The translations under genes and the position numbers were made by a program. Below are positions 4,264-29,737 of a stretch of DNA of 29,737 nt, one piece after another. The stretch's first letter is position 1; the number at the start of each line of letters is the position of its first letter. The notes below the pieces were generated by a model that was given only the letters and a program-made list of their open reading frames with translations, had not been told where the DNA came from and did not search any database. Origin of the DNA: a virus; the IMG/VR virus record IMGVR_UViG_3300031162_001016, positions 1-29,737 of that record. One strand, written 5' to 3'.

Positions 4264-4678
4264 ACTCTGATTGCATCAGAATAGTAGCATATGCTTGTGC
4301 CTCAATAGGAGACTTAGCTTTTCGGATAAGTTTTTTGAGTTCTTTGTTCTTGGACTTCTTGACTAAATCAATTTCAAAGATCTCCAGCTTCATGTTGAAA
4401 AGAATCTCTTGCTTTTGACGTTGAAACTGTTGTTCTTCTTGTTCTCTTTTCCTGGCTTGCTGCTTCTTTTGACTATCTTTATGGATCTGAGTTTTTTGAT
4501 CTAAGCCCTCGATACCAAATTGTTCAACGATAGCATCATAGTCTTGATTGACTCCGCCTTCACTTTCAGGTCCAGCAATAACATGCGCTACTGAATACTC
4601 GCCATTGCCTTGCAGCATTTCGCATACAAGATGTCTTCTCTTTTTATCCTGCCAGATAGGATTTCTATACTTTTCCAT
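4244..4678 (-). CDS. Small coiled-coil phage protein, function unknown
   Basis: I do not recognise a named family for this 144-residue protein. Residues 1-55 form a small domain beginning MEKYRNPIWQDKKRRH, a start pattern I associate with tail-fibre-adjacent proteins in marine T4-like phages. About residues 60-115 are very rich in Gln, Lys and Glu (QKKQQARKREQEEQQFQRQ) and look like a coiled coil or long helix. The C-terminus is a short helical region. GGAG (4686-4689 on the opposite text) lies 7 bases before the ATG, and a CATAAATA late-promoter octamer lies 33 bases upstream. It therefore probably starts its own late transcript reading into the glycosyltransferase. A virion or fibre-assembly role is inference. 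Confidence 0.6.
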   Translation of the reverse strand: MEKYRNPIWQDKKRRHLVCEMLQGNGEYSVAHVIAGPESEGGVNQDYDAIVEQFGIEGLDQKTQIHKDSQKKQQARKREQEEQQFQRQKQEILFNMKLEIFEIDLVKKSKNKELKKLIRKAKSPIEAQAYATILMQSEYAADVE

Positions 4679-4711
4679 AATATAACTCCACTTATTTAAT
4701 AGTTATACAAT

Positions 4712-4719
4712 TATTTATG
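4712..4719 (-). promoter_or_regulatory. T4-type late promoter CATAAATA
   Basis: On the minus strand this reads CATAAATA, matching the NATAAATA late consensus of marine T4-like phages. It is 33 bases upstream of the gene starting at 4678 and overlaps the end of the fibre gene. Confidence 0.6.
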
Positions 4720-6046
4720 CGATTCGTAGGAACAGTTTCTTAGACTCTTGTGTTGAAGATGTAGCCTGAACAGTCGCACCTACATAAGTGCCAGTGAAAC
4801 TTCGCGAGTAGGTTCCCGCGTATGCGCTGTTATATGTTCCAGCATATGCCCCTGAATATGCAGCAGTATATGAGCCGGTAAATGCACCGGTATATGATCC
4901 GGCATATGATCCAACATATGCACCCGAAAAGATTTGACTATAGCTACCAGAGTATGTTCCAGCATATGCTCCAGCATATATTCCAGAATAGTATCCGGTA
5001 AAGTTACCACCGACTGAGCCGCCGTAGAAAAGAGTGTATGTTCCAGCATATGCACCAGTGTAATAGCCAGTATAATAGCCTGTGTATGCACCAGTAAAGA
5101 ATCCAGTATATGAGCCGGTGTAATAACCTACATAATTGCCAGTGAAACTTCGCGAGTAGGTTCCCGCGTATGCGCTGTTATATGTTCCAGTATATGAGCC
5201 GGTGTATGCAGCAGTATACGAGCCAGTGAAAGCACCGGTGTATCCGCCGCTGTAGTTTACATTAGAAATAGTTTTTAATTGGTCTGTAAGAGTCTCCCCT
5301 TTTTGCTGCCAAGTTCCTGTACCTGGAGCGGAAGTTACTACTTGATAAGTACCAATGTTGTTTGAAATAATTCTATTTCTAAATCTATTTGTCAATGATT
5401 GTAGTTCAGCATCAGTTGCTTCTACTACACCATCATCAGCAAATTTAATAAGAGTTCTGTTTGTTGCAGATGCGGGTACTGTTGTTGCGGCGGTCTTTTG
5501 CCAAAGATACTTTGTTACAGTTGTTCCATCTGTTTGAGTATCATCAGTTTGCCCACGATTTACCCAAGTACCGCCTGAGGGTGCCGTAGCTGCTAACCAA
5601 TATTGACCGGCAGTATTCGCATCGTCGGTTATCATTGCATCGATCAGTTCATCCATGATCTCAGTATCGATCTCACTTTCCGTAGACTCTACTACGTCAC
5701 CGTTACTGTTTATTCTAAGAGGTGTGAATGTTTTATTGTCTGTAGCAGTGCTATCGTTTTGACCAAATGTATATACTTCTGTGGTTGTTGTACCTACTGC
5801 TGGGTGATCTCCTACATTCTCTACTCTGACCCTATCAGTAAATGTACCAATACTAGAAAAATTAGCCGACAGAGATCCATTTGCTGCTGTAACTTCAACC
5901 GAAGCAACACCCGAAGACCCTGCAAATGCAGTGGTAATTATGTTTGCGGTATAATCTTTTAGTTCAGAGGTAGATAGTTCTTGTAATCCATCGACAATAT
6001 CACCTGAAGTGATATCCGCTGTTTTTATCTTTAGGGGGCCAGCCAT
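4715..6046 (-). CDS. Tail-fibre-like protein with 40 aromatic-glycine tetrads
   Basis: This 443-residue structural protein is probably part of a tail fibre or adhesin. Residues 1-130 form an N-terminal domain (MAGPLKIKTADITSGDIVDG). About 130-260 hold two related small modules ending GGTWVNRG and GTGTWQQKG. Residues 265-424 are 40 consecutive tetrapeptides of the form [Y/F]-x-G-x with no insertion or deletion; only tetrad 21 (VGGN) lacks the aromatic. Tetrads 2-11 are repeated almost exactly as tetrads 31-40. A short basic tail (ESKKLFLRIA) ends the protein. AAAGG about 8 bases before the ATG supports the start. The neighbour upstream is another fibre-like gene. The regular array suggests a repetitive fibrous or helical shaft or a receptor-binding surface; no named family is assigned. 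Confidence 0.7.
   Translation of the reverse strand: MAGPLKIKTADITSGDIVDGLQELSTSELKDYTANIITTAFAGSSGVASVEVTAANGSLSANFSSIGTFTDRVRVENVGDHPAVGTTTTEVYTFGQNDSTATDNKTFTPLRINSNGDVVESTESEIDTEIMDELIDAMITDDANTAGQYWLAATAPSGGTWVNRGQTDDTQTDGTTVTKYLWQKTAATTVPASATNRTLIKFADDGVVEATDAELQSLTNRFRNRIISNNIGTYQVVTSAPGTGTWQQKGETLTDQLKTISNVNYSGGYTGAFTGSYTAAYTGSYTGTYNSAYAGTYSRSFTGNYVGYYTGSYTGFFTGAYTGYYTGYYTGAYAGTYTLFYGGSVGGNFTGYYSGIYAGAYAGTYSGSYSQIFSGAYVGSYAGSYTGAFTGSYTAAYSGAYAGTYNSAYAGTYSRSFTGTYVGATVQATSSTQESKKLFLRIA
4779..4898 (-). repeat. Direct repeat copy 1 within fibre gene (partner 5127-5246)
   Basis: The first 60 or so bases of this copy are almost identical to those of the copy 348 bases away, then diverge mostly by silent and conservative changes. 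The offset is exactly 29 tetrads, so the array probably grew by segmental duplication. Confidence 0.8.
5127..5246 (-). repeat. Direct repeat copy 2 within fibre gene (partner 4779-4898)
   Basis: This is the partner of the repeat at 4779-4898 and encodes tetrads 2-11. Both copies share the unusual tetrads YNSA and YSRS, which marks them as copies rather than chance similarity. Confidence 0.8.
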
Positions 6047-26748: not shown

Positions 26749-26756
26749 TATTTATA
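26749..26756 (-). promoter_or_regulatory. Late promoter TATAAATA for gene 48 and the leftward operon
   Basis: Exact minus-strand octamer 33 bases before the gp48 ATG at 26715. It overlaps the first base of the gp4 ATG on the other strand. Confidence 0.72.
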
Positions 26757-28411: not shown

Positions 28412-28416
28412 TTAAT

Positions 28417-28420
28417 GGAG
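28417..28420 (+). promoter_or_regulatory. Shine-Dalgarno GGAG deciding the gp26-like start
   Basis: GGAG lies 6 bases before the ATG at 28427 and overlaps the upstream in-frame ATG at 28415, so translation should start at 28427 (MALPSIDAP). Confidence 0.65.
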
Positions 28421-28426
28421 AATATT

Positions 28427-29128
28427 ATGGCATTACCTAGCATTGATGCACCTACATATGAGATTGAAATACCTCATACAAAGGAAGTTAAGAAGTTCAG
28501 ACCCTTCTTAGTAAAAGAAGAAAAACTTCTTGTCTTAGCAAATGAGTCTGGTGAACAGCGAGACATGATACGAGCAACACAGCAAATTGTCACAAATTGT
28601 TCGTTTGGTGAAATTGATGGTGAGAAATTGCCGCTGTTTGCGCTGCAAAAAATATTCATGGATATTAGAGCACAATCAATCTCTAGTGTCATCGATCTTG
28701 TGTTGGCGTGTGGTTCGTGTGAAGCACAAAATGAACACATGCTAGACCTAACCACACTTAAAATTGAAGAGACTGAAGGTCACAACACAATGGTTCAATT
28801 GAGTGATACAGTATTTGTTGAAATGAAGTATCCGGATCCATTTGAAATTGGCGAATTGCTAGATACTAAAGACCCCGAAACTGTATATAGAATTGCAGGT
28901 AATTGTGTAAATGTAATTTATGATGGCGATGAAAAATACAATGCGTTTGAGTCTTCAGACGATGAAAGGCAAGCATGGATAGAGCAACTAACACTCGACC
29001 AGTTTGTAAATCTACGCAAATTTTTTGAAACTATGCCTGTATTAGAACATGCAATAGAATTTGATTGCGTAAAGTGTGGTAAAGCAAACTATATTAACTT
29101 CAATGGGTACCAGGATTTTTTCGTTTAA
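28427..29128 (+). CDS. 26: Baseplate hub chaperone, gp26-like, zero-frame product
   Basis: This 233-residue protein resembles T4 gp26 (208 residues), a non-structural or low-abundance factor for hub assembly. The start PTYEIEIPHTKEVKKFRPFL then VKEEKLLVLA is characteristic of the family. Two CxxC pairs (C95-C98 in ACGSCEA and C214-C217 in DCVKCGK) look like a zinc-ribbon site. The middle (YPDPFEIGELLDTKDPETVY) is helical. The gene ends GYQDFFV. The codons for D230-F231-F232 form a T_TTT_TTC slippery heptamer three codons before the stop, with a long-range stem downstream, so a longer -1 product is predicted. It precedes a probable tape-measure gene. Confidence 0.78.
   Translation: MALPSIDAPTYEIEIPHTKEVKKFRPFLVKEEKLLVLANESGEQRDMIRATQQIVTNCSFGEIDGEKLPLFALQKIFMDIRAQSISSVIDLVLACGSCEAQNEHMLDLTTLKIEETEGHNTMVQLSDTVFVEMKYPDPFEIGELLDTKDPETVYRIAGNCVNVIYDGDEKYNAFESSDDERQAWIEQLTLDQFVNLRKFFETMPVLEHAIEFDCVKCGKANYINFNGYQDFFV
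29116..29122 (+). promoter_or_regulatory. -1 frameshift slippery heptamer T_TTT_TTC
   Basis: In the gp26-like frame the bases divide as gaT TTT TTC, the X_XXY_YYZ form required for tandem slippage. The zero-frame stop is one codon later (TAA at 29126). A 7-base spacer leads to the downstream stem. Confidence 0.7.
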
Positions 29129-29298
29129 ACCTCTCCCATGATACGCTAGAGAATTATTTTAAGACCAATTTTCTACTAATGCAGGAACATAAATATTCCC
29201 TGAGTGAGATTGAAAATTGGTTGCCTTGGGAGAGGCAAGTCTATATTGCTATGTTAATCGAGCATCTACAGAAAAAGGCAGAAAGGGCTAAACACTAA
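29122..29298 (+). CDS. -1 frame extension of the gp26-like gene (tail assembly chaperone-like)
   Basis: The -1 frame is open from 29098 and ends at TAA 29296-29298. Read after a slip at 29116-29122 it adds 58 residues (RLNLSHDTLENYF...AERAKH), giving a 290-residue fusion. The added part contains HKYSLSEIENWLPWERQVYI then AMLIEHLQKKAE, which resembles the short helical domain found in many tail assembly chaperones (helix, W/M-x-x-x-P-W-E-R-x-x-Y, helix). The only internal ATG (29179) would give 39 residues and has no ribosome binding site, so independent translation is unlikely. The end overlaps the next start as TAATG. By analogy with lambda G/GT it would bind the tape-measure protein; that is inference. 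Confidence 0.65.
   Translation, partial: RLNLSHDTLENYFKTNFLLMQEHKYSLSEIENWLPWERQVYIAMLIEHLQKKAERAKH
29130..29235 (+). promoter_or_regulatory. Long-range RNA stem, putative frameshift stimulator
   Basis: CCTCTCCCA (29130-29138) and TGGGAGAGG (29227-29235) are perfectly complementary over 9 bp, 6 of them GC, with an 88-base loop. The 5' arm begins 7 bases after the slippery site, within the usual 5-9 base spacing. A local CTCT/AGAG alternative (29131-29134 with 29148-29151) is weaker. Confidence 0.6.
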
Positions 29299-29737
29299 TG
29301 GCGGACGATCCACAGAACAAAAAAAGTTTTCTGAGCAAAGCTGCTTCAGCTACAGGCGGGCGGATAAAAGAAAGTTTGGGTGTAAACAAAGATACTCAAG
29401 GTTTCGGTAACATCATGGGCGGGGCGTTTAGTGCTGCGAACATGTTTGGTGCTGATAGCTTCCTCGGTGAGACATTAAGTAGCGATGAAGAACGAGATCG
29501 TGTAAAGCAATTCAGCAAAGATGGAAAATCATCTAGGCAATCGAAAGCCAAAAGTTCTGGTGGGGGCTTGTTTAGTACCGCTAAAGGCGTAGAAAATGCA
29601 TCTATTTCTGCTGAAGATTTAGCACCATTAGCAGAAGACGTAAAAACACTGCGAGTCATTGCAGAGGAAGAGTTTACTGCACCCCCTGTTGAAAAAACAG
29701 ACCCTGTTGCAGCTAAAGAAGATAAGAAAGAAGATAA
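29298..29737 (+). CDS. Probable tape-measure protein, N-terminal part (3' truncated by window)
   Basis: The frame is open from the ATG at 29298, which overlaps the previous stop as TAATG, to the end of the window (146 complete codons). The visible part is polar and helical: MADDPQNKKSFLSKAASATG, then FGNIMGGAFSAANMFGADSF and LAPLAEDVKTLRVIAEEEFT, ending in a Lys/Glu/Ala-rich stretch. There is no recognised domain in this part. In many tailed phages the order is tube gene, frameshifted chaperone pair, tape measure, so this position makes a tape-measure or gp29-like role likely. That is inference from order; the decisive part of the gene is outside the window. Confidence 0.5.
   Translation, partial: MADDPQNKKSFLSKAASATGGRIKESLGVNKDTQGFGNIMGGAFSAANMFGADSFLGETLSSDEERDRVKQFSKDGKSSRQSKAKSSGGGLFSTAKGVENASISAEDLAPLAEDVKTLRVIAEEEFTAPPVEKTDPVAAKEDKKED

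Follow-up and report, generated by a model that had tools for sequence, protein, structure and literature searches.

The window analysed here, a 29,737-nucleotide stretch of viral DNA (positions 1 to 29,737 of IMG/VR record IMGVR_UViG_3300031162_001016), carries on its + strand a gene for a gp26-like short tail assembly chaperone, denoted TAC-N (28427–29128; 233 amino acids plus stop). The assignment rests on profile matches, namely PF12322 in Pfam (7.1e-53) and phrog_150 (9.9e-60); the protein has matches in 903 phage records and is the only PF12322 match in the whole 29.7-kb record. The start codon kept in six aligned proteins is the ATG at 28427, with a Shine-Dalgarno-like GGAG (28417–28420, + strand) 6 nt before it. 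The upstream ATG at 28415, which appears in the open reading frame listing, was considered as the TAC-N start and rejected, the six-protein alignment keeping ATG 28427 instead.

The last codons of this gene, GAT TTT TTC GTT TAA, include the heptamer TTTTTTC (29116–29122, + strand), which is phased in the TAC-N frame as T_TTT_TTC, a canonical arrangement for a −1 slip. A single codon (GTT) separates it from the 0-frame stop TAA (29126–29128), which is itself part of a 7-nt spacer (29123–29129, + strand) leading to a putative stem. The −1 frame is open over 29116–29295, that is, for 60 codons from the slip site and 58 after the Phe-Phe pair, and its stop (29296–29298) overlaps the next ATG as TAATG. 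The predicted fusion, TAC-NC, is 290 amino acids long. Past the heptamer, the −1 frame has no ATG, GTG or TTG until codon 22, an ATG at 29179, and no Shine-Dalgarno-like sequence was seen by eye directly 5′ of it. Accordingly, what an earlier, sequence-only reading of this DNA had observed is real: a PF12322 gene with an in-phase heptamer, a 7-nt spacer, a 9-bp stem, an open −1 frame of 58 codons ending at the next start, and an internal ATG with no ribosome binding site visible by eye. That reading had also credited the −1 tail with a motif like those of tail chaperones; the chaperone-like pair stands, but the motif gives way to homology with a known protein. The −1 tail (TAC-C; 29116–29298, + strand) matches phrog_634, annotated as ‘baseplate hub assembly catalyst’ (2.6e-24), and comparison with relatives and with T4 gp51 identifies it as a homologue of the C-terminal part of gp51. 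It also matches positions 232–278 of phrog_150 (9.9e-6), beyond the end of the short protein, which suggests that the tail is fused in some members of the family.

A heptamer followed by an open frame is not in itself rare in the window: TTTTTTC occurs eight times on its + strand, and four open reading frames of at least 150 codons on the two strands, the 28427–29128 gene included, carry an in-phase XXXYYYZ motif within their final codons. What places the signal far above chance is the comparison with relatives, rather than the heptamer and the open frame alone. As a separate observation, the open reading frame at 760–1572 has an in-phase A_AAT_TTA near its stop, and the −1 frame there is open for 231 codons and overlaps the next one (1536–2243); this arrangement is probably an ordinary gene overlap.

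The putative stimulatory stem consists of a 5′ arm, CCTCTCCCA (29130–29138, + strand), that pairs perfectly over 9 bp with a 3′ arm, TGGGAGAGG (29227–29235, + strand; −1 codons W-E-R), across a loop of 88 nt and after the spacer of 7 nt. The minimum-energy RNA fold of 29123–29245 contains this stem together with an inner predicted stem of 11 bp (arms 29163–29173 and 29212–29222, + strand) and has an energy of −32.3 kcal/mol, which only 1 of 200 shuffles equalled (z −3.06). For the longer segment 29105–29297 no excess stability was found, 75 of 200 shuffles being as good (z −0.32).

The gene that begins at 29298 is cut by the end of the window, and the available fragment (29298–29737, + strand) has no significant match (best E 0.14). 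In relatives the corresponding position codes for a long protein that matches tape-measure-like and other tail proteins: the next long open reading frame matches tape-measure family phrog_794 in locus L009 (3.6e-11) and phrog_23574 in L002 (2.1e-4), both with stronger matches to other families, among them a tail-associated lysin and some without an assigned function. In Pelagibacter phage HTVC008M the tape-measure gene is the second gene downstream. To judge from these sequence matches, the locus likely lies before the tape-measure gene. Elsewhere in the window, the gp4-like head closure protein encoded at 26756–27199 matches a TnsA-like endonuclease domain in Pfam (7.7e-21).

The structure model of TAC-N (pLDDT 89.9) had no Foldseek match at E 0.001. 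In structure alignments of the first 95 residues, the best scores were obtained with 3fgx (Z 7.4), the HK97 tail assembly chaperone 2ob9 (Z 6.6) and YqbN 3klu (Z 6.3), followed by scores of 5.3 and 3.4; the second-best of these matches, to 2ob9, covered 84 residues within TAC-N residues 1–90 with an rmsd of 4.3. The modelled fold of the N-terminal domain points towards that of a tail assembly chaperone, but all Z scores lie below 8. The tail is modelled as three helices (pLDDT 74.8), the first of which is predicted at residues 3–24; Foldseek gave no useful match for it, the one listed having an E of 8.4. Sequence searches against solved structures yielded nothing at E 0.001 (three matches at 0.5–0.9), and NCBIfam nothing above cut-off.

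For comparison, we assembled 336 loci from IMG/VR and phage records, in addition to the window, and located the gp26 gene and the tail by HMM without reference to the heptamer. The set is a sample that includes the best 80 matches from each of four scans: A1 used a peptide pattern that includes Phe-Phe, albeit not its codons, A2 and A3 used tail motifs, and A4 neither. Five of the 337 entries were unpaired (L015 and L030, which are cut; L096 and L099, with no tail match; and L094, with no gp26 match on the scanned strand). In all 331 two-ORF entries, among which some contigs recur from several scans and the window is counted twice (as itself and as L013), the tail lies in an overlapping −1 frame, never in frame 0 or +1; in gp51 of Aeromonas phage Aes012, the gp26-like part and the tail occupy one open reading frame. 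After identical junctions had been merged and near-identical ones retained, 256 distinct junctions remained, 255 of which have T_TTT_TTN in phase; this bears out the expectation, raised by the sequence-only reading, that heptamer and phase are conserved in relatives. The forms are TTTTTTC (182), TTTTTTT (56), TTTTTTA (16) and TTTTTTG (1), and the heptamer is located one codon 5′ of the stop in 194 junctions and directly before it in 48. As a control, we counted the Phe-Phe pairs that these genes encode away from the junction: 14 of 253 use T_TTT_TTY, and TTT makes up 73% of Phe codons. The 80 best loci of scan A4, the patterns of which lie away from the junction, all have both the −1 tail and the heptamer (80/80). 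In nine distinct junctions (including L064, L078, L087 and L091), the 0-frame stop is found 24 nt past the heptamer and the short protein has a longer end. The single exception among the 256 junctions is Escherichia phage Cba120 (L101; Ackermannviridae, Ackermannvirus), where a homologous −1 tail (2798–2965) is present with neither a heptamer nor an ATG near the gp26 stop. The site being a T homopolymer, one might suspect that a sequencing or assembly indel split what is really one gene. We give this practically no credence: the same −1 layout in all 331 entries extends to the complete isolate genomes S-PM2, S-RIM32, HTVC008M, QD01 and 65.2, and these independent genomes already refute the idea of an indel.

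A more substantial alternative holds that the small frame is a gene in its own right, whose translation depends on re-initiation or coupling where the gp26 frame stops. Some isolate records treat it in this way: those of S-PM2, S-RIM32 and QD01 annotate the tail as a separate gene, and in the records of S-RIM32, HTVC008M and S-PM2 that separate gene is gp51, ‘baseplate hub assembly catalyst’. Some relatives have start-stop overlaps (ATGA, TAATG or TAAGCATG), and an in-frame start is present within 12 nt of the stop in 60 of the 255 heptamer-bearing relatives, the set used for all counts of starts and stems. The sequence-only reading had held that relatives with an independent start and ribosome binding site would tell against slippage; in-frame starts near the stop do occur, yet the heptamer is kept there. 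An ATG within −1 codons 1–17 is found in 97 of the 255, so that re-initiation is possible for some of these, but all 97 are at junctions that keep the heptamer, and an SD-like core precedes only 19 of the 97. No ATG, GTG or TTG at all is present in codons 1–17 in 109 of the 255, and a −1-frame start codon upstream of the heptamer is absent in 236. In the window itself, initiation at the first available start, codon 22, would delete most of helix 3–24. The call of gp51 in HTVC008M (L011, 3693–3890) illustrates the same difficulty, given that it starts from an internal ATG 20 codons late and loses conserved codons. Separate initiation therefore fails as a general account in view of the start counts (109/255, 236/255 and 60/255), and we regard it as very improbable for this locus. 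It may nevertheless apply to Vibrio phage K452 (L099, 2714–2902), which has a start at the stop (overlap TAATGATG) and no heptamer, so that its lineage may use coupled initiation; K452 is not among the 256 junctions because its tail missed the HMM. In Aeromonas phage 65.2 (L100, 2672–2848), the tail is without annotation.

A fusion could also arise if RNA polymerase slipped on the T run and produced mRNAs of mixed length. The run is T6 here and reaches T8 in some relatives, such as HTVC008M, but the commonest form, accounting for 182 of the 255, is TTTTTTC, the T run of which is short for polymerase slippage, and a stem starting 4–11 nt downstream fits a ribosomal stimulator instead. This mechanism thus appears exceedingly unlikely. 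By contrast, −1 ribosomal frameshifting is by far the best reading, because the heptamer is present at 255 of 256 junctions, the tail is in the −1 frame in 331 of 331 entries and 109 of 255 lack an early start; with this comparative sequence evidence in hand, we are highly confident that the locus is a −1 frameshift tail chaperone locus making TAC-N and TAC-NC.

The sequence-only reading had set the frameshift signal beside T4 gp26, for which it knew of no described case. T4 itself is without the signal, and has two paralogous genes instead, 26 (short) and 51 (long). Gene 26 (208 amino acids) and gene 51 (249 amino acids) lie divergently, and the products of both belong to PF12322 (8.8e-64 and 3.9e-52, respectively); in T4 (L094), where they are encoded at 4303–4929 and 4980–5729, BLASTP recovers them as paralogues at 2e-06 with 33 of 161 columns identical. 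The possibility that gp26 is the sole T4 counterpart of the window gene was ruled out, given that PF12322 takes in gp51 as well as gp26 and that the tail is found in gp51: residues 147–246 of gp51 match phrog_634 (1.2e-23), and the alignment of gp51 with the predicted window fusion (41 letters against DFFRLNLSHDTLENYFKTNFLLMQEHKYSLSEIENWLPWERQ) is unbroken through the slip position. The C-terminal end of gp26, GLKEFFELL, retains the Phe-Phe pair, but its EFF codons are GAG TTC TTT, with no slippery heptamer, and the −1 frame of gene 26 runs into gene 25 and holds no tail. T4 and the window thus resemble each other in having the same two products, gp51 being the same domain plus the tail, and differ in that T4 has two divergent paralogous genes, with a gene 26 end lacking the heptamer, where the window has one gene. 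No T4-style second paralogue with the tail fused in frame was found in the 29.7-kb record fragment, its lone PF12322 match having the −1 tail. By sequence comparison, then, the short and long forms come from one frameshifting gene in the relatives and from the two paralogues 26 and 51 in T4; the direction of change between the one-gene and two-gene states is something we infer.

The stem had been proposed by the sequence-only reading from a single sequence, which makes its examination in relatives an independent test. Covariation was assessed in 246 gapless tails, with 9 of the 255 left out (two short, seven not fitting the gapless frame); all nine stem pairs are formed in 53 of these tails and eight in 42. 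When 820 pairs of third codon positions were ranked by corrected mutual information and Watson-Crick excess, the two third-position stem pairs with a synonymous site in each arm, those of codons 5–40 and 6–39, came first and second. The 95 loci forming eight or nine of the pairs compare with 39–53 in 20 within-column shuffles of synonymous codons. For 144 of 145 representatives chosen from the 246 at 80% identity (L097 was left out), the covariation score was 0.168 versus a shuffle mean of 0.130, with none of 500 shuffles as high, and paired cells amounted to 72.8% versus 39–59% for slid partners. In the same 144 sequences, a slide of −1 scored higher than the stem register (0.190 vs 0.168), a slide of +3 came close to it in the number of cells where both partners have changed (86 vs 87), and two of five stem measures were not above shuffles, 136 and 233 of 500 being as high. 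A tree-aware parsimony count (246 merged to 238, of which 234 were used) placed pair 5–40 first of 820, with 12 pair-to-pair double changes, pair 6–39 at rank 44 (43 at the same count) and pair 7–38 at rank 389. The covariation in relatives that the sequence-only reading had proposed as a check is hence seen in the two top-ranking pairs, with mixed results in the slide comparisons and the tree-aware count.

The position of the stem is more uniform than its partner. Scanning positions −140 to +176 of the heptamer in 248 of the 255 loci, the rest being without flank, we found a strong helix starting at offset 12–15 in 49% and at 16–19 in 19%, as opposed to 0–8% in other offset windows; among the 129 loci lacking the register seen in the analysed window, 30% have a strong helix at the same offset versus 0–9% elsewhere. 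With short loops allowed (244 of 255 loci, again the rest without flank), the higher score for a strong helix was reached at offsets 11–18, corresponding to 4–11 nt past the heptamer, in 42% of the 244 compared with at most 9% elsewhere, and after clustering at 75% identity in 43% of 75 clusters compared with at most 9% in the 12 other offset windows compared. Classification of 253 of the 255 loci, the other two lacking flank, assigned 81 to the register of the analysed window, 15 to a class with a 62–68-nt loop and the 3′ arm in the SLTE codons, 40 to short hairpins in several registers, including the 14-bp hairpin of cyanophage S-PM2, 19 to mid-length loops and 17 to other long registers, whereas in 81 no strong helix is present at the expected place. 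Loops in the various classes span 84–96, 62–68, 33–49 or 4–17 nt. Within several classes, both partners of a base pair have changed; one pair of the 62–68-nt-loop class, for instance, occurs as G-C, T-A and A-T. Because members of a class were picked for pairing, only such changes, and not the pairing rate, count as evidence. On the gp26 tree, parsimony puts the number of class changes at 66, a rough figure given the arbitrary class threshold.

Could the stem be a mere by-product of the conserved protein motifs LSH and PWER, with no role of its own and the heptamer acting alone? Both arms code for conserved residues, eight or more of the nine pairs still form in 39–53 loci when codons are shuffled within synonymous columns, a strong helix is missing from 81 of 253 loci, and the slide and tree-aware results are mixed. 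The observed number of 95 loci nonetheless exceeds the shuffled range, the synonymous pairs 5–40 and 6–39 occupy the two top ranks, and loci in other registers keep a helix at the same offset, which together make a by-product unlikely, if still conceivable. As judged from these sequence comparisons, the stem is in excess of chance and holds its place after the slip site, and its 3′ partner differs among lineages. The sequence-only reading was thus right to treat the stem as meaningful, given its position and covariation, but the stem is not universal and its partner varies; its loss with both frames kept, which that reading had taken to speak against frameshifting, does occur in relatives, and the heptamer stays. 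On balance, we lean towards the idea that frameshifting in T4-like TAC genes is set by a stem whose 5′ arm is fixed 4–11 nt from the slip site and whose 3′ arm is recruited variously by lineage. One may further speculate that an 88-nt loop delays transcription of the 3′ arm; the first ribosomes could then reach the slip site before the stem has folded and later ones after it, which could tune the ratio of short to long products over time.

The sequence-only reading also took the frameshift to be undescribed, which it is not. The abstract of Vladimirov, Gautam and Davidson 2022 (Virology 566:9-15) reportedly concerns genes 26 and 51, with frameshifting kept in several T4-like groups. Lambda slips at G_GGA_AAG, and the window differs from lambda and HK97-type chaperones in its T_TTT_TTN slip site and its separate sequence family, PF12322. 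Lambda G/GT and HK97-type TAC genes, which the window locus resembles in our reading, use −1 frameshifting to make a short and a long chaperone, and these bind the tape-measure protein, according to a 2016 review (PMC5009743); the modelled N-terminal domain of the window protein may be similar in fold to the HK97 chaperone (Z 6.6). In the same review, G-T frameshifting is described as conserved ‘except T4’ (PMC5009743), and T4 gp26 and gp51 are included among hub assembly chaperones in a further account (PMC3004832). With reference to Vladimirov et al. 2022, the PRFect paper describes some T4-like phages as encoding the short form and the long, fused form in one gene each, with no frameshift (PMC10885494), and the Adele paper attributes the poly-T frameshift signals of T4-like TAC-N genes to the same work (PMC12846349). 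As these two papers credit the 2022 work with T4-like TAC genes, two forms and poly-T slip sites (PMC10885494; PMC12846349), the frameshift in the window is not new; the gp26-like TAC-N, the longer C-terminal form and the poly-T slip within TAC-N are those of the genes that this work, as cited there, describes. The TAC locus of phage Adele (Vandenendeviridae/Andersonviridae) is similar in having a poly-T slip, GTTTTT, a −1 extension and a tail annotated as hypothetical; it belongs to another phage group, and the part of the account available mentions no stem (PMC12846349). A literature search on gp26/gp51 frameshifting and on structures at tail-chaperone slip sites returned no such T4-like stem among the matches listed, which comprised titles and the beginnings of abstracts, with subscription journals little covered. 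It is the stem with the changing partner that is the part worth following.

Collectively, these results allow us to propose that the locus is the TAC gene of a T4-like phage with a contractile tail, distantly akin to cyanophages and Pelagibacter phage HTVC008M. Most ribosomes would read 28427–29128 and produce the 233-residue TAC-N, and a minority would slip back one base at T_TTT_TTC, possibly helped by the RNA stem starting 7 nt downstream, pass the stop and produce the 290-residue TAC-NC with its C-terminal helical domain extending up to 29295. We infer both the slippage and its rate. By analogy with lambda gpG/gpGT, TAC-N would coat the tape-measure protein and TAC-NC would recruit tube subunits, and in T4 the same two products would be supplied by the paralogous genes 26 and 51. 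Of the earlier interpretation, the frameshift cassette, the chaperone-like pair and a meaningful stem are retained, whereas its novelty is not; moreover, the −1 tail is no unknown motif, T4 shows no such signal and the stem is not universal.

The frameshift provides a further example, backed by a broad comparison, for the idea that T4-like phages have the same pair of short and long chaperones as lambda-like phages, and the comparison makes the T4 exception visible in sequence, as two paralogues of which the short one has its Phe-Phe but no heptamer. It shows, too, how the tail figures in isolate records, namely as a separate gene (S-PM2, S-RIM32, QD01), with a late start (HTVC008M) or not at all (65.2). 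The stem with its changing partner offers a testable case of a regulatory RNA persisting inside coding sequence and, if our reading is true, a stimulator that keeps its place while swapping its partner within coding sequence would represent a new evolutionary mode for frameshift signals.
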